A stretch of 64,000 bases of DNA from Phycisphaerales bacterium (GTDB taxonomy: Bacteria > Planctomycetota > Phycisphaerae > Phycisphaerales > UBA1924), in NCBI GenBank assembly GCA_016741915.1, contig JACVCS010000004.1, positions 1-64,000 of the forward strand, written 5' to 3'. A program made the translations under genes and the position numbers. Positions 25,257 to 53,676 of this stretch are shown here, piece by piece. The notes under the pieces were generated by a model. It was not told the origin of the DNA, did not search any database, and was given only the letters and a program-made list of their open reading frames with translations. Position 1 is the first letter of the stretch; each line of letters opens with the position of its first letter.

Positions 25257-25567
25257 AGGACCAGAGGGTAGCTGGGTCAGGGCGGGTTGGGAACTGGGTT
25301 CGGACGATGGCTGGGGAGAGGGGATGGGCTGTCGGGCGGATGGGTGCGGGCGGTCCGAGAGCCTGATCCACGGAGGTGATGGGTGGTGGGTCTTGAGTGG
25401 GTGTCGAGCGGATCAATGGTGGTAAGAGGGGCAGTTTTGCCTCGGATTCAGCGGAGTCTTCGATCGGATCGTGGTGCAGCGTGACCAGCGGCGTGTACAG
25501 TTTACGGGCGTCGGCGGGCCGATCCGTCGGCTTGGTAAGCGTGGGATTTGTGTAGAGGGTGCGATTC
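25257..25567 (+). other. Divergent spacer between nuoI and the collar genes, with a UNCG hairpin
   Basis: This 311-nt stretch separates divergent nuoI and collar gene 1 and should contain both promoters, though no clear -35/-10 pair was found. At 25518-25531 GCCGA-TCCG-TCGGC forms a 5-bp stem with a UCCG tetraloop, 37 nt before the collar start, probably in its 5' leader. Short G-rich stretches occur around 25380-25410. No credible gene is seen. Confidence 0.35.
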
Positions 25568-27277
25568 ATGGAAACACAGCGTTCTGTCGGTTTGGAAAAG
25601 TCTCTTGCTTTGCTCGTCTGCGGTCTGGTGATCAGCGCGGGCTTTGCACGGTCCGCGGCGGGGCAGTTTGTCACCAACGCCAACGGCATTTCGGATGCGC
25701 GGTTTGATTCAAGCGAGCCGTATCTCGCCCTGAACTTCGCGTTGCAGGTGGACGGGCCGACGGGGCTGGGCGTGCCGGTACGGATGTTCGCCTTCGGGCC
25801 TACGAACGGCACGTGGCGGTACAACCTTCCGGGCTCTGCGGAGCCTTTCGCCGCGTGGATGCCGCCGGATGGGCGGACGCTGAGCTCGCAAACGCACCCC
25901 GTGCTCTTTCAACAGCTCAACGCCACGTTCGGGAGCCCCGGCGCCGGGCAGTTCAGAATCCCCGATCTTCGCGGGAAGTCGATCGTCGGTGAGGGTGGCG
26001 GGCCCGGGCTTGAGATCACCGGCCGCGGCGACACCCTCGGGGCTGAGTATGTCACGCTGACGGAGGCGAACCTGCCCGCGCACACGCACACGCTGGGGCA
26101 GCAGACATCGACCAGCAGCGGCGGCGGGCAACCGTTCAACAACCGCTCGCCGAACTATGGCTTGAACGTCGTGGTGATGAACACGGGGGCGTATCCGACG
26201 CAGTCGGGGCTGCCGAACCCGACGTTGGCGACTCCGGCGCAGCCGCTGATCGGTCAGATCCAGTTTCTGTGCGTGAGCGCGCCGAACGCGGGGTATCTGC
26301 CGGCGCGTGGGACGGAGTTGAACATCAACTCGAACACGGCGTTGTATTCGATCATCGGGACGTTGTACGGGGTGCCCAGTTCTCCTCAGACGCGGTTTAT
26401 CATTCCCGAAGCGCGTGGGCGTTCGCTGGCGGGTCAGTCGTTCAATACGGCGGTGCCCGCGGGCCTGACGCCGCGGGCGCTGGGCTCGCGGTACGGGGCG
26501 GAGTCGATCACGCTGACGCCCGCGAACTTGCCGCCGCACCGCCACGCGATGCCGACCAATATGTCGACATCGTCGGTGGGGTCGGCGGTTCCGATCGAGA
26601 ACGTCGGGCCGCAGACGGCCGTTACGTACTGCATCGCGTACACGGGCACGTACCCCGCGTCTGGATCTTCGATGAGTGCGAGCACGGCGTACATCGGCGA
26701 GGTGATCGCCTTTGCGGGGAACTATGCGCCCGACGGGTACTTCCCGTGTGACGGACGATCACTGCCGATCGCTCAGTACGAATCGCTGTTCACCTTGATC
26801 GGCTTTTTCTACGGCGGTGACGGAGAGACGACGTTCGCGATTCCTGACCTGCGGTCTCGGGTGCCGGTGATGGCCACCTCGACAAAGCCAATGAGCACGG
26901 CCGACGGTCGAGAGCAGGTCACGCTGGGGATCTTGTCGATGCCCCGGCACACGCACGAGTTCGCAAGGGCGGGGTGCCAGGCGGCGGATATCGCGTGCGA
27001 CAGCGGCTCGTTGTTTGACCCGGCGTTTTTCTTCTCGTGCACGAACAACGGGGTGAACGAGGGCGACTACAACGGCTTCTTCTCTTTCAACGGGTTCTTC
27101 AATCAAGCCGGACGAGGATCGGCGGCGATCGGCACTGTGTGGGATATCGCCTATGACTCGGGCGATCCGTTGCCGCCGTTCGGGGCGGTCATCCCCAACG
27201 CCGTGAACAACGGGGTGAACGAAGGGGATTACAACTGCTTCTTCAATAACTTCTTCCTCGGGTGCACGCTCAACTGA
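25568..27277 (+). CDS. Secreted triple tail-collar protein 1 with dockerin-like C-terminal repeats
   Basis: A 569-residue exported protein. An AGAGGG 8 nt upstream supports ATG 25568. The signal peptide is ALLVCGLVISAGFARSAAG. Three phage-tail-collar-type domains follow, each with the core PDGR/ARGT/CDGR ... F(R/I)IPD/EARG(R/K): MPPDGRTLSSQ to RIPDLRGKSIVGEG (~100-145), LPARGTELNI to IIPEARGRSLAGQ (~240-295), FPCDGRSLPIAQ to AIPDLRSRVPVMA (~395-440). Each is followed by an LPxHxH-type segment. From Cys470 two repeats of the DIA-x-D-x-G ... NNGVNEGDYN-x-FF type end the protein. There are no phage genes nearby. In bacteria, collar proteins without phage genes are annotated as tail-fibre or MdpB-like; their function is unknown. 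It is paralogous to the next gene. Confidence 0.85.
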   Translation: METQRSVGLEKSLALLVCGLVISAGFARSAAGQFVTNANGISDARFDSSEPYLALNFALQVDGPTGLGVPVRMFAFGPTNGTWRYNLPGSAEPFAAWMPPDGRTLSSQTHPVLFQQLNATFGSPGAGQFRIPDLRGKSIVGEGGGPGLEITGRGDTLGAEYVTLTEANLPAHTHTLGQQTSTSSGGGQPFNNRSPNYGLNVVVMNTGAYPTQSGLPNPTLATPAQPLIGQIQFLCVSAPNAGYLPARGTELNINSNTALYSIIGTLYGVPSSPQTRFIIPEARGRSLAGQSFNTAVPAGLTPRALGSRYGAESITLTPANLPPHRHAMPTNMSTSSVGSAVPIENVGPQTAVTYCIAYTGTYPASGSSMSASTAYIGEVIAFAGNYAPDGYFPCDGRSLPIAQYESLFTLIGFFYGGDGETTFAIPDLRSRVPVMATSTKPMSTADGREQVTLGILSMPRHTHEFARAGCQAADIACDSGSLFDPAFFFSCTNNGVNEGDYNGFFSFNGFFNQAGRGSAAIGTVWDIAYDSGDPLPPFGAVIPNAVNNGVNEGDYNCFFNNFFLGCTLN

Positions 27278-27309
27278 ACGGGATTTCAAAGTTCTGATTT
27301 GTTTGGCGG

Positions 27310-27339
27310 GTTCAGTTACTCGCGACGATTGAACTGAAC
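27310..27339. repeat. 8-bp inverted repeat between the two collar genes
   Basis: GTTCAGTT (27310-27317) and AACTGAAC (27332-27339) are perfect inverted copies with a 14-nt loop, 33 nt after the first collar stop. There is no T-tract. It may slow transcription between the paralogues or be a binding site. Confidence 0.35.
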
Positions 27340-27528
27340 TCCGTTCATCTGTTGGGGGTTTGGGGGATTCTTCGTACATACTTTGCGGTACGCAAGGGCG
27401 TCGTTCGACGTGATTCTTCGGGCTTTGGTCGCTGGGTTGTGGCTTTTCAAGGGCCGGTCATTACACTGGACTGACCCGCGCAGATACCGGCGCGGTGTCC
27501 CCAAAGCGGCTTGACCTCGGAGAAATGC

Positions 27529-29229
27529 ATGCGGCAAATAAAAGCACACGCGATGGGCCGTTCGTATCACGGGTCCCGCTTTCATGCCGGAGATCGTCAC
27601 TTCGGGTGGGCGGCTGTACTCTCGACGTGTGTTGGGTTGACGGCGGCGGCACCCGCCTATGCGCAGTTCACCGGTAGCGCGGGTACGGTGAATCCGCTGC
27701 CGATCCAGAACATGCAGCCGTCTCAAGCGGTGCAGTTCGCGGTGGAGAACTTTGGCATTTTCGGACTCGGAGCACCGATCCGCATGTTCGCGTATAGCCA
27801 AGGGACGTGGAACATTCTGGCCTCCGAGGGTTGGATGCCGCCGGATGGTCGAAGCATTCCGATCGCGAATAACGAGTTCCTCTTCGTTCAGATCGGTACG
27901 ACGTACGGCGGAGACGGGAACACCTTTTTCAACATTCCCGATCTGCGCGGGCGGAGCCCAATCGGCGAAGGGCAGGCACCGAGCCTCAGCTCTTTCACTC
28001 GCGGTGAAGTTGTGGGCAACAGTTCGCCCGTACTGAGCACCAGCAACATGCCATCGCATGCGCACGGGTTCGGCAGCATCTCGACCGGTCCCGTCGGGTT
28101 TGGATCACCGTTCACCAACCGTCAGAACTCACTGGTCACACCGATCCGCATCGCCAAGACGGGAATCTTCCCGTCGCGCGGCGGCGGAGTCGGGTCCGCT
28201 GTGAGTCCGGGGCAGCCGTGGATCGGCCAGATCTTTGTCATGTGTGTGCAGCCGAACAACACCAACCAGTTCATCCCAACGGATGGGGCGATTCTGCCGA
28301 TTTCGTCAAACCAGGCGTTCTTCTCGATCCTCGCAACGTTTTATGGCGGTACGGGCGTGCAGAACTTTGCGGTGCCCGATGCCCGCGGTCGCGCGTTGAC
28401 CGGGTACACAATCACCGAGCCGCTGAACGGGCGAGCCCCGCGAGTCATCGGCGAGCGATACGGATCCGAGAATGTCACTCTGCTGACCGCGAATCTGCCT
28501 CTGCACCGTCACGCTGTTGCTGGGAATCAGTTCACAGACTTCACCGGCAGCGGTCAGGTGTTCGATAACAACCAACCGACACTGACCATCACTTATTGCC
28601 TGTGCGTCAATGGCGTCTTTCCCAACGGTGCCGGGATAACGAGCGAAGAAGGATATCTGGGCGAGATCGTGGCCTTCGCGGGCAACTTCGCGCCCGAGGG
28701 GTACGTTCCTTGCGATGGGCGACTGCTCGACAAGAGCGTCTACTCGGCGCTGTTTTCACTGATGGGAACCACCTTTGGCGGCAATGGAGTGACAACATTC
28801 GGCGTTCCGGATCTGCGTTCTCGTCTTCCGATCATGGCTTCCGCGCAGATTCCTGTCGGTACCGTGATCGGTTCGGAAGGCGCCAGCATCGAGAGCACCC
28901 AGATGCCCGCGCACGTGCACGCGCTTTTCGCGCCGCCGCGGTGCCAAGTCGCCGACATCGCCTGTGACAACGGTGTGCCGCTGAGCCCGACCTCGGGCTG
29001 CACCAACACGGGCGTGAACGAGGGCGACTACAACGCGTTCTTCGCAGCCGACGGCTTCTTCTTCCAGGCCGGTCTGGGCACCGCGGCGATCGGCGCTTCG
29101 TGCGATATCTCGTACGACAACGGCGAACCCCGCCCGCCTTTCGGGCCCGTCGTTCCCAACGCCGTGAACAACGGGGTGAACGAGGGCGATTACAACTGCT
29201 TCTTCAACTTCTTCTTTCTGGGCTGCTGA
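27529..29229 (+). CDS. Secreted triple tail-collar protein 2 with dockerin-like C-terminal repeats
   Basis: A 566-residue paralogue of collar protein 1, 251 nt downstream on the same strand. GGAG 6 nt upstream supports ATG 27529. The signal peptide includes AAVLSTCVGLTAAAPAYAQ. Again three collar domains: MPPDGRSIPIANNEFLF to NIPDLRGRSPIGEGQ, IPTDGAILPISSNQAFF to AVPDARGRALTGY, and VPCDGRLLDKSVYSALF to GVPDLRSRLPIMASA. The C-terminus from Cys472 carries the same two dockerin-like repeats (DIACDNG ... NTGVNEGDYNAFF and DISYDNG ... NNGVNEGDYNCFF), ending FFLGC. The last ~30 residues are nearly identical to those of collar protein 1. A bidirectional terminator follows. The exported location is supported; the role is unknown. 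Confidence 0.85.
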   Translation: MRQIKAHAMGRSYHGSRFHAGDRHFGWAAVLSTCVGLTAAAPAYAQFTGSAGTVNPLPIQNMQPSQAVQFAVENFGIFGLGAPIRMFAYSQGTWNILASEGWMPPDGRSIPIANNEFLFVQIGTTYGGDGNTFFNIPDLRGRSPIGEGQAPSLSSFTRGEVVGNSSPVLSTSNMPSHAHGFGSISTGPVGFGSPFTNRQNSLVTPIRIAKTGIFPSRGGGVGSAVSPGQPWIGQIFVMCVQPNNTNQFIPTDGAILPISSNQAFFSILATFYGGTGVQNFAVPDARGRALTGYTITEPLNGRAPRVIGERYGSENVTLLTANLPLHRHAVAGNQFTDFTGSGQVFDNNQPTLTITYCLCVNGVFPNGAGITSEEGYLGEIVAFAGNFAPEGYVPCDGRLLDKSVYSALFSLMGTTFGGNGVTTFGVPDLRSRLPIMASAQIPVGTVIGSEGASIESTQMPAHVHALFAPPRCQVADIACDNGVPLSPTSGCTNTGVNEGDYNAFFAADGFFFQAGLGTAAIGASCDISYDNGEPRPPFGPVVPNAVNNGVNEGDYNCFFNFFFLGC

Positions 29230-29273
29230 GTCCGCACCGGATCAACGATCCACGCAAAAAACCAACGCAACGA

Positions 29274-29310
29274 AAAGCCCCGACACCCTTTGAACAGGTG
29301 CCGGGGCTTT
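29274..29310. terminator. Bidirectional intrinsic terminator
   Basis: A 14-bp stem with one mismatch (AAAGCCCCGACACC / GGTGCCGGGGCTTT) and a 9-nt loop, followed by GTATTT on the plus side and preceded by an A-rich stretch that gives Us on the minus side. It lies between convergent collar gene 2 and the tricorn-like protease gene, serving both. Confidence 0.8.
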
Positions 29311-29354
29311 GTATTTGCGTTGCGTTCGCTCTGCGGCGTCTGACGAAGCCCGGT

Positions 29355-32300
29355 TTACTTGGCGTTCTTGCCCGGGCCGGTCTTGACGGACTTGTCGGGC
29401 AGTGCGGGCGTGACGACCGGCGGGACGGGCTTCTCCTTCATGAGCTTCTTCAGGTGCTCGACGGCGGCCTTGAGCTGCGCGTCCTCGCCCTTGAAGGCCG
29501 CGTGAGGCGGGTTATCGACGACGATGTCGGGGTCGACGCCGTGACCTTCAACGAGCCAGATGCCGTCGAGGTTGTAGACGCCGAACTCACCGGCGCTGGC
29601 GAGCCCGCCGTCGGAGAGGTCGTTGCTGCTGCTGAGCCAGACCTCGCCGCCCCAGGTGCGGGTACCGATGACTTTGCCGATGCCCAATCGGCGGAAACCG
29701 TCGGAGAAGGCCTCGCCGTCGGAGGCGGTGAAGCTGTCGCAGATGACCACGACGTGCCCGCGGAAGGCGTACTGCATGTTCCAGTTGGGCGCGACGCCCA
29801 CGCGCTGGTTCCAGTACATCCAAGCCTTGCGGAGGAGTTGACCGAGGATCCACGAGTCGATGTTGCCGCCGTTGTTCCGGCGGACGTCGATGATGAGCCC
29901 TTCGCGGTTGTAGACGGGGAAGTACCCGCGCGCCCACTCGCTGATGTTCTCGGTGCCCATCGCGCGGAGGTGGACGTAACCGATCTTGCCCTCGCTGAGT
30001 TTCTCAACTTCGCGCCGGCGTGAGAACTCCCAATCGGTGTAGCGCAGGTCGGCCTGCACGCCGCCGCTGACCGGGCGGACGATGAAGTCCTTCACCTCGC
30101 CCGCGTTGCGCTTGACGGTGATGAGGACCTGCTGGTTAGCCTTGGCTCGCAGCAGTGCCGCAGGGTGCGGCACGTCGAGCGTCGAGCGCCCGTTGATCGC
30201 GGTAAGGACGTCGCCTTCCTTCACGTCGATGCCCGGACGCATCAGCGGGCCGGCCTTGTTGGGCTCGTCGGGGTCGTGCTTGTAGATGCGCGAGATAACC
30301 CAGCCGCCCTGCTTCTCGTCGCGGGTGAACTCGCACCCCAGGTAGGAGATGGCGACGTTGTCCGGACCGTCACGGAAGTCGCCGCCGCGGACGAAGTGGT
30401 GCAGAGTCGAGAGCTCGCCTGTGAGCTGGGCGAGGATGTCGTTCAGCTCGGCGCGGGAGCGGATGCGTTCCACGAGCGGGGCGTACTTGGTGCGCATGGC
30501 GTTCCAGTCCACGCCGTGCATGTTCGTGGCGTAGAAATAGTCACGCAGCAATCGCCACGCGTCGGTGTAGAGCTGGCGGTACTCCGCCATGGGTGAATAG
30601 CTCATGCTCCACGCATCGAGGCTGACCCGGCCCTTCTCGACTTCCGCCGGCGCCGGGGCGGCGTCGACGATCGAGATCGAATCGCCCGTGTACAGCATGA
30701 TCTTCTTCTTGTCGGCGCTGAGCTCGTACGCCCGCAGGCCCGAGGCGACGTTCTTCACCTCGACCTTGTCGTTGCTGATGGCAACGCCCTTGAGTGTGAA
30801 GCCGCCGTCGCCGCGCTCGCTGACGCCGTCGGTTGCGCCGAAGTAGAGCGCACCCTCGGTGACGCTGAGGCGTGAGTAGTTGCCCGGGGCGATGGGGACC
30901 TCGATCAACCGGTCGGCGAGGCCCTCCATTTCGATCACCACGGGGGTGGTCTTCTTGGAATCCTTACCATCTTTGCTGGCGTCTTTGCCTTCCTTTGACT
31001 CCTTCGCGTCCTTGCCGTCTTTGGCCTTGTCGGCTTCTTCGGGCTTGGTGGGTTCCTTGGACGGTTCCTTTGCGGGCTCCTTCGCCGGCTCGGTCGGGGG
31101 CTGTTTGACGTCCTTGCCCTCCGCGGGCTCGGGCTTTTTGTCCTTCTCTTTGTCCTTGTCCTTGTCTTTCTCTTTGTCCTTCTCTTTGCTCGCGTCGAAG
31201 AGCTCGTCCTTCGCCTGCCACGGGGACCGCTCGCCCGCCTTCAGCGCCAACGCGTACACCTTCGTCCGCTCATCGAAGTACGGCTGGGGCGCCATCGGGC
31301 CCCACGGGCTCGGCACCGTCGAGCGGATGTTCCGATCCGACAGGAAGTACAGCCACTTCCCATCCGGGCTGAACGCCGGGCTGAAGCCCTCGAAGCGGTC
31401 GCTGCTGATCGGCGTGACCGTCTTGTCCTTCAGCGAATAGAGCTGGATCTGCTGGGCCATGTTCGAGGCCTGCGCCTGGAAGACCAGCCACTGCGAATCC
31501 GGGCTCCACGAATACTCCGACGGACGATCCACCGGCGAGTCAAAGACCTTCGTCGTCTGACCCGTCGAGATCTCGGTGATGTAGAGCTTCTGGTTCTTGT
31601 CGCTGTGGGCCATCAGCTTGCCGTCGGGGCTGATGACGGCCTCCCAGCGGAGGATCTCGCCGTCGCTGGTGATCATCTTCTCGTCGCCGGCCTCGCGCGC
31701 GCCGCGCGCCGGGAGCGACCAATACTCAACCTCGCCCGAGCGGTCGCTGGCGAAGACCACACGCTGCCCGTCGGGGGTGAAGATCGCCGAGCGCCCGCGG
31801 ACGCCCGGGGTGGTCATGAGTTCAACAAACCGCCCGTGCCGGGCCTTCGCCGGCGCGACGAAGACACGCCCGCGCGAAACGATCGCCACGCGGTCGCCGT
31901 TCGGAGAGACGCTGACGCTCGAAATCGCCCGCACCGGCTCCTTCACCCAGCGCTCGCGGAGCTGGTCCAGATCGCTCGTCAGCGTGATGTTCACCACGCG
32001 GTCGGCGTTGGTCTTCACGTCCACCACGTGCACGTCGCCCTTGTGCGAATAGACCACGCGCCCAGCGTCCATCTCCGGGTTCGCCGCGTCGAACTCCTTG
32101 TGGAAGGTGTGCTGCTTGAGGTCCTTGCCATCCTCGTTCATCGACCAGAGGTTCATCACCCCGTCGCGATCGCTCAGGAAATACACCCGGCCCTCAAACC
32201 ACATCGCGTCCTTGCTCGTGCCCGCGTAATCCGTCGTCAGCGGCGTCGCATCGCCCGCGCCCGGGACAAACTTCCACAACTGCTGAATGAACCCGCCCTT

Positions 32301-33050
32301 GTACCGCTTGGTGTACGAACCCTGGAACGGCAAGCGCGTGAAGAAGAACGTCTTGCCGTCGCCCGAGAAGCTGCCCTGGTCCGCCTCGTAGAGCTCGACG
32401 ATCGACGTGGCGCCGGTGTTCAGATCCAGCACCACCGTCTGCGAGCTGGGGAGCGTGGCGAACTGCCGCGTGGAGTAGAGCAGTTTGTTGTCGGGGGTCC
32501 AGCCGATGAACCCGCCGCGCTGCCAGCCCCAGGTCCGCCGAACCGGCAAGCCGCCCTCCATGGGCATGGTGTAGACCTCAGCGGGGCCTTCATAACTGGC
32601 GACAAAGGCGAGGGTCTTGCCGTCGGGGCTGATGGCGGGCATCGACTCTTCACCCGCGTGGGCGGTCAGACGCGTGGCGGTGCCGCCGGCGGTACTGACC
32701 TTCCAGATGTCGCCCTCACTGACGAAGACGATGGTGTCGCCGCGGAGCGCCGGGTGGCGGTAATAGCCGAGGGTTTGGTTCTGCTGCACCCCGCCGTCAA
32801 GGATCGACGCGGGGCTCGCGGCGGGTCGGGCGTTGCCCTCGCTCAGCCTCATCCCACCCGCGGGGGCGGTGCTACCGCTGCCACCCTCGGGCGGCTGCGC
32901 GATCGCGCACGCCGACAGACTCAAACCCGCGGCCAAGGCAACAGCGAACGCGGCGCCCGCCGCCCTGCCGATCGACCTGCCCGCAAGCCAACGACGCTCA
33001 AAACGACCCCGCGACTTCTGCTGCATGGATGCCTCCAAGAGAGTTTTCAA
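29355..33050 (-). CDS. Tricorn-like S41 protease with beta-propellers and PDZ domain
   Basis: A 1231-residue exported protein. The leader AFAVALAAGLSLSACAIA could be cleaved by either signal peptidase (possible lipobox LSAC). Residues about 80-600 contain TolB/tricorn-type propeller repeats (FVSEGDIWKVSTAGG, SPDGKTLAFVAS, SPNGDRVAIVS). A strongly charged Lys/Asp/Glu/Pro linker (about 615-700) interrupts the propeller region. A tricorn-core helical region, a PDZ domain (GDVLTAINGRSTLDVPHPAALL) and the S41 domain follow: LIIDVRRNNGGN, then CDSFTASDGEAFSDGF with the predicted nucleophile Ser1110, and TRTWGGEVW. In the archaeal tricorn protease these parts degrade oligopeptides; here it probably acts in the periplasm. 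ATG 33026 is an alternative start. Confidence 0.9.
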   Translation of the reverse strand: MKTLLEASMQQKSRGRFERRWLAGRSIGRAAGAAFAVALAAGLSLSACAIAQPPEGGSGSTAPAGGMRLSEGNARPAASPASILDGGVQQNQTLGYYRHPALRGDTIVFVSEGDIWKVSTAGGTATRLTAHAGEESMPAISPDGKTLAFVASYEGPAEVYTMPMEGGLPVRRTWGWQRGGFIGWTPDNKLLYSTRQFATLPSSQTVVLDLNTGATSIVELYEADQGSFSGDGKTFFFTRLPFQGSYTKRYKGGFIQQLWKFVPGAGDATPLTTDYAGTSKDAMWFEGRVYFLSDRDGVMNLWSMNEDGKDLKQHTFHKEFDAANPEMDAGRVVYSHKGDVHVVDVKTNADRVVNITLTSDLDQLRERWVKEPVRAISSVSVSPNGDRVAIVSRGRVFVAPAKARHGRFVELMTTPGVRGRSAIFTPDGQRVVFASDRSGEVEYWSLPARGAREAGDEKMITSDGEILRWEAVISPDGKLMAHSDKNQKLYITEISTGQTTKVFDSPVDRPSEYSWSPDSQWLVFQAQASNMAQQIQLYSLKDKTVTPISSDRFEGFSPAFSPDGKWLYFLSDRNIRSTVPSPWGPMAPQPYFDERTKVYALALKAGERSPWQAKDELFDASKEKDKEKDKDKDKEKDKKPEPAEGKDVKQPPTEPAKEPAKEPSKEPTKPEEADKAKDGKDAKESKEGKDASKDGKDSKKTTPVVIEMEGLADRLIEVPIAPGNYSRLSVTEGALYFGATDGVSERGDGGFTLKGVAISNDKVEVKNVASGLRAYELSADKKKIMLYTGDSISIVDAAPAPAEVEKGRVSLDAWSMSYSPMAEYRQLYTDAWRLLRDYFYATNMHGVDWNAMRTKYAPLVERIRSRAELNDILAQLTGELSTLHHFVRGGDFRDGPDNVAISYLGCEFTRDEKQGGWVISRIYKHDPDEPNKAGPLMRPGIDVKEGDVLTAINGRSTLDVPHPAALLRAKANQQVLITVKRNAGEVKDFIVRPVSGGVQADLRYTDWEFSRRREVEKLSEGKIGYVHLRAMGTENISEWARGYFPVYNREGLIIDVRRNNGGNIDSWILGQLLRKAWMYWNQRVGVAPNWNMQYAFRGHVVVICDSFTASDGEAFSDGFRRLGIGKVIGTRTWGGEVWLSSSNDLSDGGLASAGEFGVYNLDGIWLVEGHGVDPDIVVDNPPHAAFKGEDAQLKAAVEHLKKLMKEKPVPPVVTPALPDKSVKTGPGKNAK

Positions 33051-33119
33051 CCCGCGCCGCTCGGCTGAAGGCCGAAGGGCTCACCTCCCCTCCACTCCCC
33101 CACTGACGCTGATTCCAGC

Positions 33120-34658
33120 CTACTTGCGCTTCTTGAACCGGTCTTTGATGCTGGGGGTATAGCTCGTGCCCTTGTTCCGCAAGAACGACGAACCCATACT
33201 GGGGAGCATCGGGCCCTGACCCGCCGCCCCGAGCTGCTTCACCGCCTTCATCTTGTCCAGCGCCGACATCCCCGCCATCTGCTTCGAGATCTGGCTGATG
33301 GTGGTGAACTGCTTCACCAGCGCCGCCACTTCGTTCTCGCTCGTCCCCGAGCCCTTGGCGATGCGCCGCCGGCGCGAGCTGTTCAGCAGCTCGGGCTTTC
33401 GGCGTTCGTCCTTCGTCATCGAGTGGATGATCCCCTCGACGCGGTCGAGCTTTTCGTCCTCGATGTTGATGTTCTTCAGCGCCGAGCCGATCCCCGGCAG
33501 CAGCCCCAGCAACTGCTTCATCGGGCCCATGCGGCGCAGCGAGCGGAGCTGGTTGAGAAAGTCCTCCAGCGTCATCTCGCCCTTGGCGAGCTTCTCTTCC
33601 AGCGCTTTCGCATCCTCTTCGCTGACCTGCTCGCGGGCCTTCTGCACCAGCGAGACCACGTCGCCCATGCCCAGGATCCGCCCCGCCACACGCACGGGGT
33701 GGAACTCTTCGATCGCGTCGAGCTTCTCACCGACACCGACGAAGCGGATCTTCGCCCCGGTGATGCTCTTGACGGAGAGGGCCGCACCGCCGCGGGTGTC
33801 GCTGTCGAACTTGGTGAAGATCAGCCCGTCGACTTCGAGCTTCTCGTGGAAGCTCTTCGCCGATCGAACCGCGTCCTGACCCGTCATCGCATCAACCACC
33901 AGGAAGATCTGGTGCGGCTTCAGCCGCAGGTTCACCTGCTTCAGCTCGTCCATCAACTGGTCGTTGACGTGCAAGCGACCGGCGGTATCGAGGATCACCG
34001 TGTCCACGCCCATCGACCGCGCCTTCGCCACGGCTCGCTCGCACACACCCACCGCAACGCCCACCGCTTTGCCATACTCCGCCGTCTTCTCGGGCTCGCT
34101 GTAGAACGTCACCGTCGCGCCGCCCGGCAGATCGCGCTGCACCTGCTCCGCCACGGTCTGAAGCTGATCCACCGCCGCGGGACGCTGCAGGTCCGCCGCC
34201 ACCAGCATGACGCTGCGCCCGCGCTTCTTCAGCCATCCCGCGAGCTTGCCGCAGGTGGTGGTCTTACCACTGCCCTGCAAGCCGCACATCATCACGATCG
34301 TCGGCCCGGGCTCGGCCGCCGCCACCCCCGGTCCGTCGGCCATCATCATCTTGGCGATGTCTTCCTGGCTCGCCCCCGCGGGCACCTCGGGCAGATCGCC
34401 CAAGAGCTGCACGAGCCGGTCGTAGACGATGCCGATCATCTCCTGACCGGGGTTGAGGCTCTTGGTCACCTCGCGACCGAGCGCGTCCTTCAGCACGCCC
34501 TCGGTGAACGAGTTGACCACCTCCAGCGCCACGTCCGCCTCGAGCAGCGCGGTGCGCACCTGCTCCATCGCCTCACGGACGTTGGACTCGCTGATCGCCC
34601 CCTTGCCGGAGAGTTTGCGCAGGACCGAAGAAAACCCGTCGGAAAGCCGGTCAAACAT
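33120..34658 (-). CDS. ffh: Signal recognition particle protein Ffh
   Basis: A 512-residue SRP GTPase that, with 4.5S RNA, targets nascent membrane and exported proteins to FtsY and the Sec translocon. The start is ATG 34658 because family members begin M-F-D-x-L-S-x-x-F; a GTG 21 nt upstream is disregarded. The N domain (about 1-90) is followed by the G domain with MMCGLQGSGKTTTCGKLA, the DTAGRLHVND box and TKFDSDTRGGAALSV, then the Met-rich M domain (MGPMKQLLGLLPG, SRRRRIAKGSG, KQMAGMSALDKMK) that binds signal peptides and RNA. The SRP RNA gene was not found in this window. The serine hydrolase gene ends 36 nt upstream on the same strand. Confidence 0.95.
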   Translation of the reverse strand: MFDRLSDGFSSVLRKLSGKGAISESNVREAMEQVRTALLEADVALEVVNSFTEGVLKDALGREVTKSLNPGQEMIGIVYDRLVQLLGDLPEVPAGASQEDIAKMMMADGPGVAAAEPGPTIVMMCGLQGSGKTTTCGKLAGWLKKRGRSVMLVAADLQRPAAVDQLQTVAEQVQRDLPGGATVTFYSEPEKTAEYGKAVGVAVGVCERAVAKARSMGVDTVILDTAGRLHVNDQLMDELKQVNLRLKPHQIFLVVDAMTGQDAVRSAKSFHEKLEVDGLIFTKFDSDTRGGAALSVKSITGAKIRFVGVGEKLDAIEEFHPVRVAGRILGMGDVVSLVQKAREQVSEEDAKALEEKLAKGEMTLEDFLNQLRSLRRMGPMKQLLGLLPGIGSALKNINIEDEKLDRVEGIIHSMTKDERRKPELLNSSRRRRIAKGSGTSENEVAALVKQFTTISQISKQMAGMSALDKMKAVKQLGAAGQGPMLPSMGSSFLRNKGTSYTPSIKDRFKKRK

Positions 34659-34694
34659 GGTCGTCGAGGATAGGGGCACTGCCCCCGCCCCGTC

Positions 34695-36029
34695 TTACGG
34701 GCAGGCAAGGAAGAAGTTGTTGAAGAAGCAGTTGTAATCGCCCTCGTTGACCCCGTTGTTCACGCCCGCGTCGGGCGTTTCGCCAAACGGCGGCAGCGGA
34801 TCACCATTATCAAAGGCGATATCGCTCCAGTTCGCCCTGATAAAGAACCCGTTGATGAACGCGTTGTAGTCGCCCTCGTTCACACCGGTGTTGCTGCGGA
34901 AGCTCGCACACGGGCCCATCGGATCGCCCGCGTCGTCACCCACGTCCGCGGGTGAACACGGCGCATTGCGAACCTCACGCTCCGCCGCCGGTCGCATGAG
35001 GTTGACCATCGTGATCACGTCGGCGCTGGCGGAAAGGTCCGTCGCCACGCAGCCGACGATCTCGTCGTCGAAGTCGATCCAGCAGCTAAACCCGCGAGCC
35101 CCGGCCGCCAGCGCCCCGATCAGCCGCCCCTGTTCGTCGCGCTGGTCGAGCCACACCCCTACGCCGTAGTCGCTCACCCCGGGATAGGGCGTGCTCAACA
35201 CCGGCACACCCACCGGGCTCTGCCGCGTGAACATTGCGTTCACCGCGGATTCAGAGAGCACGCGCACGCCGTTGTGCACCCCGCCCTTGCGCAGCATCTC
35301 CATGAACCGTGCGAACTCCTCGGCGTTGCTCTCGCACCCGCCGGCGATCCGCGGGTTCGTCGCGCTGGAGATCACGTACCGCGTCTGCGTCATGCCCAGC
35401 GGGCCGGCGATCCGCTGCGCGTACAGATCGTTCCAGAGCAGACCCGAGGCGACCTCCGCCGCCGCCCCCGCCGCGTGCATCGATGCCCCGCCGTAGAGGA
35501 ACCCCTGCCCCGGTGCATACTGCAATGGCTGCCCCGCAATTTGGTTCGCCGCCTGCTGAAGCGTCAGGTTCGGGATGTTCACCGCCAGCGCGTTGGCGGG
35601 CAGGCCCGAGCTGTGCGAAAAGGCCTGCCCGACCGTGATACCCGCCTTGTCGCCCGTGAACGAAGGCAGATACACACTCAACGGCCGGTTCAATGAGAAC
35701 AAGCCCGCCGTGCTGTCGACCACCGACATGATCACCGCGCCGGAGATCGTTTTTGTCGCCGAGTCCGCCGCACCCACCCGTCCGACACTCCACGCGCCGA
35801 AGGCCCGCTGATAGACCACCCGCCCCTTGTGGATCAGCAGCAGCTCAAACCCCGGGATCGGAGCGCCGACCCCCTGCCCCTGCACCGCGGCATTCGCGAT
35901 CTGCGTCACCTCACAGAACGTCGGCTGGGCCGGCGCCGCCATCGTCGTGCCGCAGATGCACAGCAGAGCCGCACCCGCCGTCATCATCAGTCGACCACCA
36001 CACCTCCGACCGTTCGTTGTACCGATCAC
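34695..36029 (-). CDS. Secreted serine hydrolase (beta-lactamase class C fold) with dockerin-like repeats
   Basis: A 444-residue exported protein. GTG 36029 is chosen: GGAG (36037-36040) lies 7 nt upstream, and the product starts with a clean signal peptide (GRRCGGRLMMTAGAALLCICGTTMA, cleavage near APA). Longer forms from a TTG at 36116 lack this logic. The catalytic domain resembles the beta-lactamase/DD-peptidase/esterase family: SATK (S-x-x-K nucleophile motif), a FLYGGASMH segment at the Y-x-N position, and HSSGLPANAL. The usual Y-x-N is Y-G-G, so esterase or peptidase activity is more likely than drug hydrolysis. From Cys358 two dockerin-like repeats (SNTGVNEGDYNAFI, NNGVNEGDYNCFF) end in FFLACP, matching the collar proteins 6-9 kb away. 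Confidence 0.85.
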   Translation of the reverse strand: MIGTTNGRRCGGRLMMTAGAALLCICGTTMAAPAQPTFCEVTQIANAAVQGQGVGAPIPGFELLLIHKGRVVYQRAFGAWSVGRVGAADSATKTISGAVIMSVVDSTAGLFSLNRPLSVYLPSFTGDKAGITVGQAFSHSSGLPANALAVNIPNLTLQQAANQIAGQPLQYAPGQGFLYGGASMHAAGAAAEVASGLLWNDLYAQRIAGPLGMTQTRYVISSATNPRIAGGCESNAEEFARFMEMLRKGGVHNGVRVLSESAVNAMFTRQSPVGVPVLSTPYPGVSDYGVGVWLDQRDEQGRLIGALAAGARGFSCWIDFDDEIVGCVATDLSASADVITMVNLMRPAAEREVRNAPCSPADVGDDAGDPMGPCASFRSNTGVNEGDYNAFINGFFIRANWSDIAFDNGDPLPPFGETPDAGVNNGVNEGDYNCFFNNFFLACP

Positions 36030-36200
36030 GTCCGCTCTCCATTCGTCCGCCCGCGCCCGTGCGGCAATCAAACCGTTCACGCCCGTCGCACGATTCAACG
36101 GGACATGCCCGCCCAACGATTGACCAGTGAACGCATTGCAATCAATGAAACCGACCTCTTCAGGCCCGCGGGCGGCGTTTCTCGCCGGGCTTACCCAGAT

Positions 36201-50778: not shown

Positions 50779-52418
50779 AGGTACACCCGCACTTTCAGAA
50801 CCACCTTCGACTCTTCACGGTCGGGCAGTTCGTCAAGGATCCGCCCGCTGGCCGTCCAGCGGTACAGGGCCGAGCGCACCGGCTCGTCGATCCCCGTCTC
50901 CGACCCGGAACTCTGCAGCACCGTGACGTTGGAGACGGTGCCGTCCTTGCGGAAGACGACCTCCATCAACGGCGGCGTGGGCGCGAGCGTCAAACTGTTC
51001 AGCAGCGTGAGCTTGGGACGCTCCGTGCGAACTTCCAGCCCTTCGCCAACTTCGATCTTGCCGTTGCGCGAGACGAAGACGCCCTCAACTTTCCGCGTGC
51101 TCGACGCGAGGCTCTCACGGTCGCTCGCCTCGCCCGGCTCGGCGTTGGGCGAGCCCGCCATCGTGCGGGGCCTGGGTGCGTTCTTGGCATCGGGCGACGG
51201 CGTGCCAAGGGCCGAGGGGTTCTGTCCAGCCGAGGCCTCCGACCCCTTGGGCTGCTGCTTGGCGTCGATGTTCGCGTCGGGCTTGATTACCGGCTGCTCA
51301 CGGGCCGTGGGTAGGGCCGGCGCGCCCGGCGCGTCCACCACGCCCGACCGTGCGCCGCCCTTGGCCTCTTGGGCTTCCCGCGGCAGGTTCTCCTTCTGCT
51401 CGCGGACTTCCTGCAGCTTGGGTGAAAGCACCATCGCCTCCTGAGGCGACGACGCGGGGTTCTTGGGGCGCTCGCCGGCGTTCGGGCCCAGGGCTTGCTT
51501 CGCTTCGCGGTTCTCATTGCCTTTCTTCGCGTCAGTCGAGGCAGGAATCGCGGGCTGCGGCGCGGGCTTGCTCGGGTCGATGACGACGAGCCCCGACGCC
51601 TCGCCCGGCGTGGCTTTTTCCGCCGGGTTCACCGGATTGGCAACGCCAAGCACCGCCTCGCGCGGGGTCGGATCGTCCGACTTCCCTGGGTTCTTCGGGT
51701 TCTTCAGACCCTCCACGGCCGGCGCGGGCATCTCCGACGGATTCTCCGTGCCCCGGACGCTCGTCGATGGCGAAAGGTCCGGCGCGTCGGGCTTCGTCAC
51801 ATCGCTAGGCAAGGGCTGGTTCTGCAGCGGCTTGGGCTGGCTTGTCGGTGCGCCCGGGTTTGTATCGCTGAGCGACCGCGTCGGGTTCCCCGTCATGGGG
51901 ATGCCGCCCGAGGCGGCGGTCGACGGCGGCGTCGGCTCACCCAGCACGCCCGCATTGCGCGTCAGCCCGGCCTGATCGACCTTGCTGGGCACGCCCATGT
52001 GCGGGCCGGTGGCGGTCTCGCTGACCAGCCAGTTGGGTGTCGGTGCCGCAGTTGAGTCCTTCTTCCCCAGTTGCACCTGATCGACCGGAACCTGTACGAC
52101 CATCGGAGGCGGCGGAGGTGGCGGCGCGGATGTTGGCGGCGGCGAAACTGGTGGTGTGGCGGCTGAAGGCAGCGCCAACGTCGGCGCAGGTTGAGGGATG
52201 GACCGTACGGGTCCGGCGACGTTCGCCGGTGGCTTGGGTTTGGGCTTGGGCTGTTCCAGCATCACGCGCTGATCGCTGACGACCTGCCGCTTGGGCGGGG
52301 CCATGTCGGGCGAGAAGACCTGAAAGTAGACCGCCGTTGCGACCAGCCCGGCGTGAATGAACAGGCTGAGCGCCAGAGCGGCGGGGATGGGCATGATGGA
52401 GAGGTTCTGCTGCTTCAC
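50775..52418 (-). CDS. TonB-like energy transducer with long Pro-rich spacer
   Basis: A 547-residue inner-membrane-anchored protein. One transmembrane helix near the N-terminus (PAALALSLFIHAGLVATAVYF), then a long Pro/Lys/Ala/Ser-rich periplasm-spanning region (about 50-460), and a C-terminal TonB-fold domain (PPLMEVVFRKDGTVSNVTVLQSSG ... DREESKVVLKVRVYL). TonB transmits proton-motive force via ExbB/ExbD to outer-membrane receptors. No exbB, exbD or receptor gene is in this window, and the spacer is much longer than in E. coli TonB (239 aa in total). A TolA-like or structural role is also possible. It overlaps the downstream secreted protein gene by 4 nt. Confidence 0.78.
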   Translation of the reverse strand: MKQQNLSIMPIPAALALSLFIHAGLVATAVYFQVFSPDMAPPKRQVVSDQRVMLEQPKPKPKPPANVAGPVRSIPQPAPTLALPSAATPPVSPPPTSAPPPPPPPMVVQVPVDQVQLGKKDSTAAPTPNWLVSETATGPHMGVPSKVDQAGLTRNAGVLGEPTPPSTAASGGIPMTGNPTRSLSDTNPGAPTSQPKPLQNQPLPSDVTKPDAPDLSPSTSVRGTENPSEMPAPAVEGLKNPKNPGKSDDPTPREAVLGVANPVNPAEKATPGEASGLVVIDPSKPAPQPAIPASTDAKKGNENREAKQALGPNAGERPKNPASSPQEAMVLSPKLQEVREQKENLPREAQEAKGGARSGVVDAPGAPALPTAREQPVIKPDANIDAKQQPKGSEASAGQNPSALGTPSPDAKNAPRPRTMAGSPNAEPGEASDRESLASSTRKVEGVFVSRNGKIEVGEGLEVRTERPKLTLLNSLTLAPTPPLMEVVFRKDGTVSNVTVLQSSGSETGIDEPVRSALYRWTASGRILDELPDREESKVVLKVRVYL

Positions 52419-52457
52419 CCGAAGAGAATCGTAGAACGATCAACGGGTCGGGAAGGT

Positions 52458-52994
52458 TCAGGCGGAGGCTCGACGTCGTACCGGTTTGGCGGTGTGCCCG
52501 GCTGCGGCAAGCGGTGCAAACCGCGCGACACTCGGGTCGGAGAGCGGGCCCAGCGTCACCCAGCCCGATCGGGCCCTTCCGCCAAGTTCGGGGCCGTGGT
52601 TGACGGCGCGAGGTTCGAGCAGTTCGATGAGGGTGGCGAACCGGGCGTGGCGTTTGCTCGCCCAATAGTCGTGCGTGGCGGCGATCCGCGGGCCGAAGCT
52701 CTCGCGAAGGTGCTTCAGCCCGGCGCGGGTGAGAAGTTCGTAGCTCCACACCTCCCCGACACGGACAATCAGGCGGTACGGCCCGCCGCGCTGTTTGATC
52801 AGGACAACATCGCCCGTTTCCACCCGGGCAAAGGGAACTGCCCGGTGCACGGAGAGCCGAGATTCCACCGTCTTTTGGCCCGTTTCGATCAGGTCGACGT
52901 ACCGCTCCAGCACAATCGCGGCGTGCACGAGCACCCCGCGCACAGTCGGCGAAACCACGCTCGGGCGGGGGAGTGCGGATCTGGACGTTGGCAT
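52458..52994 (-). CDS. ASCH/PUA-like domain protein
   Basis: A 178-residue cytoplasmic protein. The N-terminal half fits the ASCH fold: ERYVDLIETGQKTVESRLSVHR (the YxxxIxxGxKTxExR signature), followed by GDVVLIKQRGGPYRLIVRVGEV. ASCH domains are PUA-like and thought to bind RNA; some hydrolyse modified nucleosides. The C-terminal ~45 residues are less conserved. It is 39 nt downstream-side of the TonB-like gene (its stop lies just before that gene's start region is reached on the opposite side), so both are read on the minus strand and may be cotranscribed. Confidence 0.75.
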   Translation of the reverse strand: MPTSRSALPRPSVVSPTVRGVLVHAAIVLERYVDLIETGQKTVESRLSVHRAVPFARVETGDVVLIKQRGGPYRLIVRVGEVWSYELLTRAGLKHLRESFGPRIAATHDYWASKRHARFATLIELLEPRAVNHGPELGGRARSGWVTLGPLSDPSVARFAPLAAAGHTAKPVRRRASA

Positions 52995-53676
52995 GGTGAA
53001 TCGCCGCGTGAGGCCGGGATCGGGGCAAAGGGACAGGGGAGGGGGGGAGCGGGGGCTCGCGATCGGTCACTCGTCGGGGTTCGTATCGGGATACCACCGT
53101 TCGGCCTTGATTCCGGCACCCCTGCACGTGGGGGCTGGGTTCGTTCTCAATCCACGCCGGGGCATCCACGACGAGGTGCTTACGAACAAAATACCGAACA
53201 CATTGTCAAGAAATGATGAACGGAAAGCGATAGCGCACCCTGAGGGCCTTTTGTCAGCAACAATTTCCCTGCAAGAACGAATATGTGGTTGCGATGCGGG
53301 CCTCAGGTCAGGGTGAAGGGTGCGGGGGCTTGGGCGGGGTTGGGAAGGGTTGGCGGGTGTGAATCGGCGGGTGTGGCTGGTGTGTTCTTTCCGCGCGGCC
53401 TGAGCCCCGTTGCGATGGCTGTACATCGAGGGTTTTCACGGGCGCACCACCGAACGATACGGGTTTACCCGTATATCAACACAGAGCGAACGGAGAAGTT
53501 CCGACCTGTGGTCGCAACGGGCTGAAGTCTGTTTCCGATTTGTGACTCCACATTGCCCCCACTCGCGAAATCGATCGCGTCACTCGGCGAATCAATCGGT
53601 ACGCTGAAGTTCAGCACCGCGGGATCGAACACCATCCCCGATGCCGATCGACCGGGTGCGCACTGGAGGCCTTCTT
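52995..53676. other. 682-nt gene-free spacer with a five-run G-tract
   Basis: No credible gene. At 53022-53055 five plus-strand G-runs (4, 3, 4, 7, 5) with loops of 1-4 nt could form a G-quadruplex, 28 nt before the ASCH start, on its template strand. An imperfect inverted repeat joins CCTGAGGGCC (about 53241-53250) with GGGCCTCAGG (about 53298-53307). The spacer is divergent (ASCH minus, lipoprotein plus), less GC-rich near 53180-53280, and should hold two promoters; I could not fix them. Confidence 0.45.

Follow-up and report, generated by a model that had tools for sequence, protein, structure and literature searches.

In a 64,000-nucleotide stretch of a Phycisphaerales draft genome (hereafter the window), three secreted-type proteins end in the same two-repeat module, which raises the question of what this C-terminal tag is, what it does for the proteins that carry it and how its copies are kept alike. 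The features concerned are as follows.

25559–27277, + strand: collar protein 1, with a signal-peptide-like N-terminus, three PF07484 domains and a C-terminal tag
26975–27265, + strand: tag of collar protein 1, first to last Cys (repeat 1, 26987–27100; repeat 2, 27143–27265)
27511–29229, + strand: collar protein 2, with a signal-peptide-like N-terminus, three PF07484 domains and a C-terminal tag
28942–29226, + strand: tag of collar protein 2, modelled with AlphaFold2 (repeat 1, 28954–29061; repeat 2, 29104–29226)
29275–29310, + strand: terminator-like hairpin 3' of collar protein 2, AAGCCCCGACACC...GGTGCCGGGGCTTT, read by eye
34695–36116, − strand: secreted-type serine hydrolase of the PF00144 (Beta-lactamase) family, with a SATK motif and a C-terminal tag
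34698–34958, − strand: tag of the hydrolase, short-linker form (repeat 1, 34842–34946; repeat 2, 34701–34823)

The tag in the window and across the genome

In translation, each tag opens with a Cys (codons at 26975 and 28942 on the + strand and at 34958 on the − strand), continues with two rounds of D-[IV]-x-x-D-x-G, an insert and N-x-G-V-N-E-G-D-Y-N-x-F, and closes in FFLGC or FFLACP. A sequence-only reading of the window had placed this module at the C-terminus of both collar proteins and the hydrolase, where the translations indeed show it, although the closing motif is not the very end of the collar 1 tag, which runs on to FFLGCTLN, three residues past the Cys. It had also given all three proteins signal peptides, in agreement with the signal-peptide-like N-termini seen when the translations were inspected by eye, and had called them unrelated. 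The last point holds for the hydrolase against the collar proteins but not for the collar pair, which share the same PF07484 domains at 41% identity and are paralogues, so that the window holds two tagged body types rather than three. Relative to the collar 1 tag, the collar 2 tag is 70% and the hydrolase tag 62% identical. The two collar genes are neighbours (25559–29229), each encoding three phage-tail collar domains, and the only comparable collar relative found in the family, a 412-aa protein of the relative G088 (locus L117), ends in that genome's own tag style, a single terminal repeat that nevertheless has a Cys on both sides.

A profile built from the three window tags matched 89 places in the genome under study (G000; 3.59 Mb, 160 contigs, 92% complete), about 80 of them with E < 1e-8. 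This is far above chance and extends the tag well beyond the window. By open reading frame analysis of this genome, the tag stands directly before the stop codon in 79 frames and is internal in about five. With the tag removed, BLASTP sorts the 79 bodies into 47 groups (largest group, 24 members), bodies being termed unrelated where there is no BLASTP match at E 1e-3. The 65 proteins scanned for domains included collar proteins, beta-lactamase-type hydrolases, subtilases, di-haem peroxidases, cyclophilins, phytase-like and Ig-domain proteins, HAF-repeat proteins and choice-of-anchor proteins, and some of the bodies are related to sortase- or T9SS-dependent proteins. A crude signal-peptide rule was passed by 52 of 74 tagged frames versus 11 of 77 untagged window frames, and by only 3 of the 74 when applied to the second halves of the tagged frames. 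The sequence-only reading had named internal occurrence in non-exported contexts as a sign against its interpretation; the internal copies are confined to large RHS-like proteins, set against 79 C-terminal copies, and so do not refute a tag function.

RHS/YD-repeat proteins at L065 (C135:7500–22000) and L078 (C101:42500–52500) carry the internal tag without the bracketing Cys, shortly upstream of the RHS core motif PDPIGYAGGRNLYQY; adjacent RHS copies have a common core and differing C-terminal ends, as in polymorphic RHS proteins. Elsewhere, about ten tagged genes, almost all on the same strand, form an array at C100:32000–60500 (L048, L049) that is broken by a prepilin-like gene at about 52218–53289; inspection of the array showed no obvious untagged scaffold gene. 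One tagged protein at C100:49079–52300 (L015, L049) has canonical EF-hand/dockerin-like repeats, GDFDGNALRNVADTREMLLAF and GDFNCDGNFDRHDVRYF, upstream of its tag, so that both types coexist in one protein.

A loop-expanded relative of GC-type dockerins

The sequence-only reading had left undecided whether the tag belongs to a dockerin variant known from Phycisphaerae or is distinct. The answer lies in between: it is best read as a lineage-specific, genus-level, loop-expanded derivative of the GC-type dockerin (NCBIfam NF041540, dockerin_GC), a named but uncharacterised family for which a literature search found no paper using the name. The curated cut-off of that model is 29 bits; two of the window tags gave no match and the third about 11–12 bits, the simplest copies in G000 scored 24–28 bits, with best values of 27.9–28.4 bits (E 2e-6), and tags of G088 exceeded the cut-off at 34–38 bits. 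A Pfam scan of the tag gave no dockerin match, PF00404 included. Profile–profile alignment with hhalign matched the tag to canonical GC dockerins at a probability of 90–93% and located the insert within the N-terminal half of the repeat 2 loop, the sole loop wholly spanned by the alignment. An RHS-like protein on contig C101 is a hybrid that combines a first repeat like those of the tag with a second in the form of a textbook EF-hand, DFDQDGDADTADYNRF. Such intermediates, together with the profile–profile alignment, indicate that the tag derives from GC-type dockerins, even though the current model formally excludes it. The NF041540 scores, hhalign result and hybrid also support the proposal, made from the window alone, that the tag is dockerin-like and has an insert splitting its calcium loop, and the loops probably bind calcium.

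The tag shares with NF041540 two tandem, homologous loop-plus-helix repeats, placement at the C-terminus of exported proteins, dozens to hundreds of copies per genome, the same site on orthologous hydrolases and a Cys before repeat 1 paired with one at the end (in 74 of 79 copies), although Pro, Ser or Ala often takes the place of Gly in the Gly-Cys terminus. It differs in its score below the cut-off, its NGVNEGDYNxFF signature, its intra-loop Cys pairs, the long linker, with an additional helix, seen in most copies, and inserts of 10–20 residues in both loops of nearly all copies, which therefore depart from the 12-residue D-x-D-x-D-G loop of an EF-hand; some GC-type dockerins of G036, G011 and G088 likewise have enlarged loops. 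The two-F-hand plan is also that of the type I dockerins of cellulosomes (PF00404), and type I dockerins such as 5lxv_B, 2y3n_B and 3ul4_B are among the PDB matches of the canonical GC profile, whereas the tag itself has no Pfam match, expanded loops, no accompanying cohesin and non-cellulase bodies.

Among 163 family genomes, the tag profile matched only three, in this genus and, more weakly, in G088, and in a set of 392 genomes from the phylum, which includes this genus and G088, it matched two. A tag exclusive to G000 was rejected on account of the variants in G033 and G088. The parent family is far more widespread, dockerin_GC being present in 160 of the 163 genomes; of six genomes counted more deeply, five carry between 100 and at least 151 copies. 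GC-type dockerins are thus among the most repeated domains in these bacteria. Hydrolase tails of the genus g2 (G003, G002 and G001; L156–L158) carry another dockerin loop version, DFNxDGxxPDDxD (DFNNDGSSFDPQD), which NF041540 mostly misses, so that genomes with few matches may still use the system.

An AlphaFold2 model of the collar 2 tag, built without calcium, is confident (pLDDT 93.6) and consists of two loops of about 30 residues, followed by helices at 32–39 and 86–96; a control model of a canonical GC dockerin has the same loop-helix-loop-helix order with short loops. A Foldseek search of the tag model against the PDB and viral models returned no match, a result that is uninformative because the canonical control was likewise matchless in the PDB.

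The cysteines of the 79 copies covary. Loop 2 has the Cys at D+3 together with a later Cys in 34 copies and neither of them in 45, with no copy having just one; for loop 1, 37 copies have both and 36 have neither, the other 6 having only the later Cys. At the ends, 74 copies have a Cys before repeat 1 as well as the terminal Cys, 3 lack both and 2 have one of the two. Fisher p-values are 1e-16 and 4e-23 for the loops and 2e-4 for the ends, figures that overstate significance as the copies are related by descent. Three sampled tags of G089 that lack the first Cys also lack the last. The pattern supports one putative disulfide inside the loop and another stapling the ends of the tag together.

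Genome-specific versions and a shared 3' cassette

The window hydrolase provides a body that can be followed between genomes. Relatives 33–62% identical to it occur in 36 of the 163 family genomes, G000 counted, and nearly all of the 30 tails read end in a two-repeat dockerin-like module, which almost always has the dockerin style of the genome in question. In five genomes compared, the hydrolase tag shows 56–67% identity to tags elsewhere in the same genome and 30–50% identity to the hydrolase tags from other genera; between G000 and G033, which form a genus pair, identity percentages do not separate own-genome from other-genome tags. A tree of about 90 tags groups them by genome, with those of G033 nested in or beside those of G000, with 17 of 21 G011 tags forming one clade, and with a genome-mate as nearest neighbour for all five hydrolase tags. 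Read from these alignments and the tree, tags evolve in concert within a genome.

Named hydrolase relatives are mostly from Phycisphaerales MAGs. In Pirellulales (Lacipirellula, Bythopirellula and Pirellula) the enzyme ends in dockerin-like repeats plus PEP-CTERM, and its counterpart in a Burkholderiales MAG has only PEP-CTERM at this end, which places the module at the position of an anchor; in Pirellulales, ahead of the PEP-CTERM anchor, it may act as a spacer or stabiliser. In the orthologue of Phycisphaerae bacterium IP29b_bin.25 (L199), the dockerin-like repeats are followed by a hydrophobic stretch and a short tail of charged residues, so that its anchor differs in layout from that of its relatives.

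At the DNA level, 17 genes of G000 from seven body groups (one contributing 10 genes) have in common a block of about 420 bp with sharp edges, comprising tag, 3' UTR and terminator. It spans from 15–30 nt upstream of the tag to about 130 nt beyond the last codon, its 3' edge being the T-run of the intrinsic terminator AAGCCCCGGATCGAAAGGTCCGGGGCTTTTT. Over 79 pairs with unrelated bodies, median nucleotide identity is 54% upstream (53% in random pairs), 82% in the tag, 77.5% in the UTR and terminator and 49% beyond. The most similar pair has 95.8% identity across 429 bp, while the bodies match over only 29 residues close to the N-terminus (E 0.006). When the genome was searched with one UTR, all matches longer than about 45 bp lay directly 3' of a tag in the same orientation, the remainder being short GGGCCGAGG-type repeats. 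The UTR is non-coding, so that selection on the protein cannot account for its identity. The simplest reading is that duplication or gene conversion copied the block, with both mechanism and direction presumed; a literature search on dockerins and gene conversion found nothing relevant. Short GGGCCGAGGGATGAGGGCCGAGG-type repeats (L295, L297–L299, L301–L305) occur away from tags and also within the cassette UTR, and could serve as recombination points.

The three window tags lie outside this recent set. The hairpin behind collar protein 2, which is absent from the output of a consensus terminator scan, resembles the cassette terminator in style and has no similarity to the UTR. Four relatives, sampled at 7–20 tags each, showed no UTR cassette, their tag DNA being similar up to near the tag edges; the cassette may therefore be special to G000 or to recent copies. 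The DNA-level comparison of tags took in three from G033 and none from G088. Tentatively, and at somewhat under even odds, we propose that ectopic copying of the cassette onto the 3' ends of unrelated genes spreads tags and keeps them uniform, driving the concerted evolution of a cohesin-independent docking system that co-evolves with its receptor. If true, the cassette would be a concrete way in which bacteria give new proteins sorting tags and keep dozens of them in step.

Proposed docking to a surface receptor and competing functions

The reading we favour, with a probability of roughly 55%, is that the tag docks or retains exported proteins at a common receptor of the cell surface or matrix other than a PF00963 cohesin. 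Two F-hand repeats, each made of a calcium loop and one helix, at the extreme C-terminus of exported proteins would be stapled closed by a disulfide from the Cys before repeat 1 to the Cys after repeat 2, a further disulfide would close the enlarged loop in many copies, and the common receptor would capture the tagged proteins, displaying them at the surface. At least part of the uniformity within a genome would come from tag, 3' UTR and terminator being copied together onto other genes. Counting against docking are the fact that no candidate receptor emerged, the departure of the expanded loops from the 12-residue EF-hand, the RHS-like copies, which are internal rather than C-terminal, the cassette unseen in the samples from four relatives and the Pirellulales dockerin standing ahead of a PEP-CTERM anchor as a possible spacer or stabiliser.

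The main competitor, which we regard as unlikely though by no means negligible, makes the tag a C-terminal cap or spacer that is stabilised by calcium and disulfides and has no receptor of its own; it would aid folding, resistance to proteases or outer-membrane passage and be uniform only through DNA copying. The disulfide pattern, the confident and compact model, the Pirellulales module preceding an anchor and the internal RHS-like copies all suit such a role, and cassette copying alone would suffice for uniformity. Specific recognition nevertheless fits better with clade-specific versions on dozens of unrelated bodies, even in relatives in which the UTR cassette was not seen, and the extreme C-terminal bias suits it better than a general stabiliser.

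Docking also seems far more probable than self-association, in which Phe-rich tags would bind one another and form a matrix without a separate receptor; the helices are very rich in Phe (NCFFNNLFL) and mutual recognition would need uniformity within a genome, but this is a proposal put forward by inference, and we give it little weight.

Slightly less weight still goes to a classical cohesin–dockerin assembly, of cellulosome or 'planctosome' type. The tag descends in sequence from dockerins, the PDB matches of the canonical GC profile are to type I dockerins, and a planctosome, with non-cellulosomal use of dockerins, has been proposed for the planctomycete Nemodlikiaceae (PMC6461901). That model needs cohesin, however, and no PF00963 candidate was detected in the 92%-complete draft of G000; across the family, PF00963 matched 15 of 163 genomes and went undetected in 148, versus 160 with dockerin_GC, which makes a classical cohesin an unlikely receptor. 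It was accordingly rejected for G000, and a cohesin as the partner, one of the options offered by the sequence-only reading beside a membrane receptor, is not supported. These bacteria thus have their abundant dockerins with the classical receptor missing, and the natural series of loop variants, the cohesin negative in most of the 163 genomes and the hydrolase orthologues with local tags offer handles on function.

Least probable is a cleaved sorting signal of the PEP-CTERM/exosortase kind, since, for all that G000 has an exosortase and the Burkholderiales enzyme bears PEP-CTERM at the tag position, the tag is modelled as a folded domain, its ends (e.g. FFLPCV, FFLGCP) lack the PEP motif, transmembrane helix and basic tail of that system, and exosortase is equally common across the family. 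This near-ubiquity cannot discriminate, and exosortase was rejected as the specific partner of the tag. The two systems are alike in setting one C-terminal tag on many unrelated exported proteins, and in ending the same hydrolase in different taxa, but differ in that the G000 tag is a Cys-bracketed domain. G000 also encodes about a dozen PEP-CTERM candidates, mostly weak, at loci separate from the tags, and the PEP-CTERM route therefore probably runs alongside the tag in this genome.
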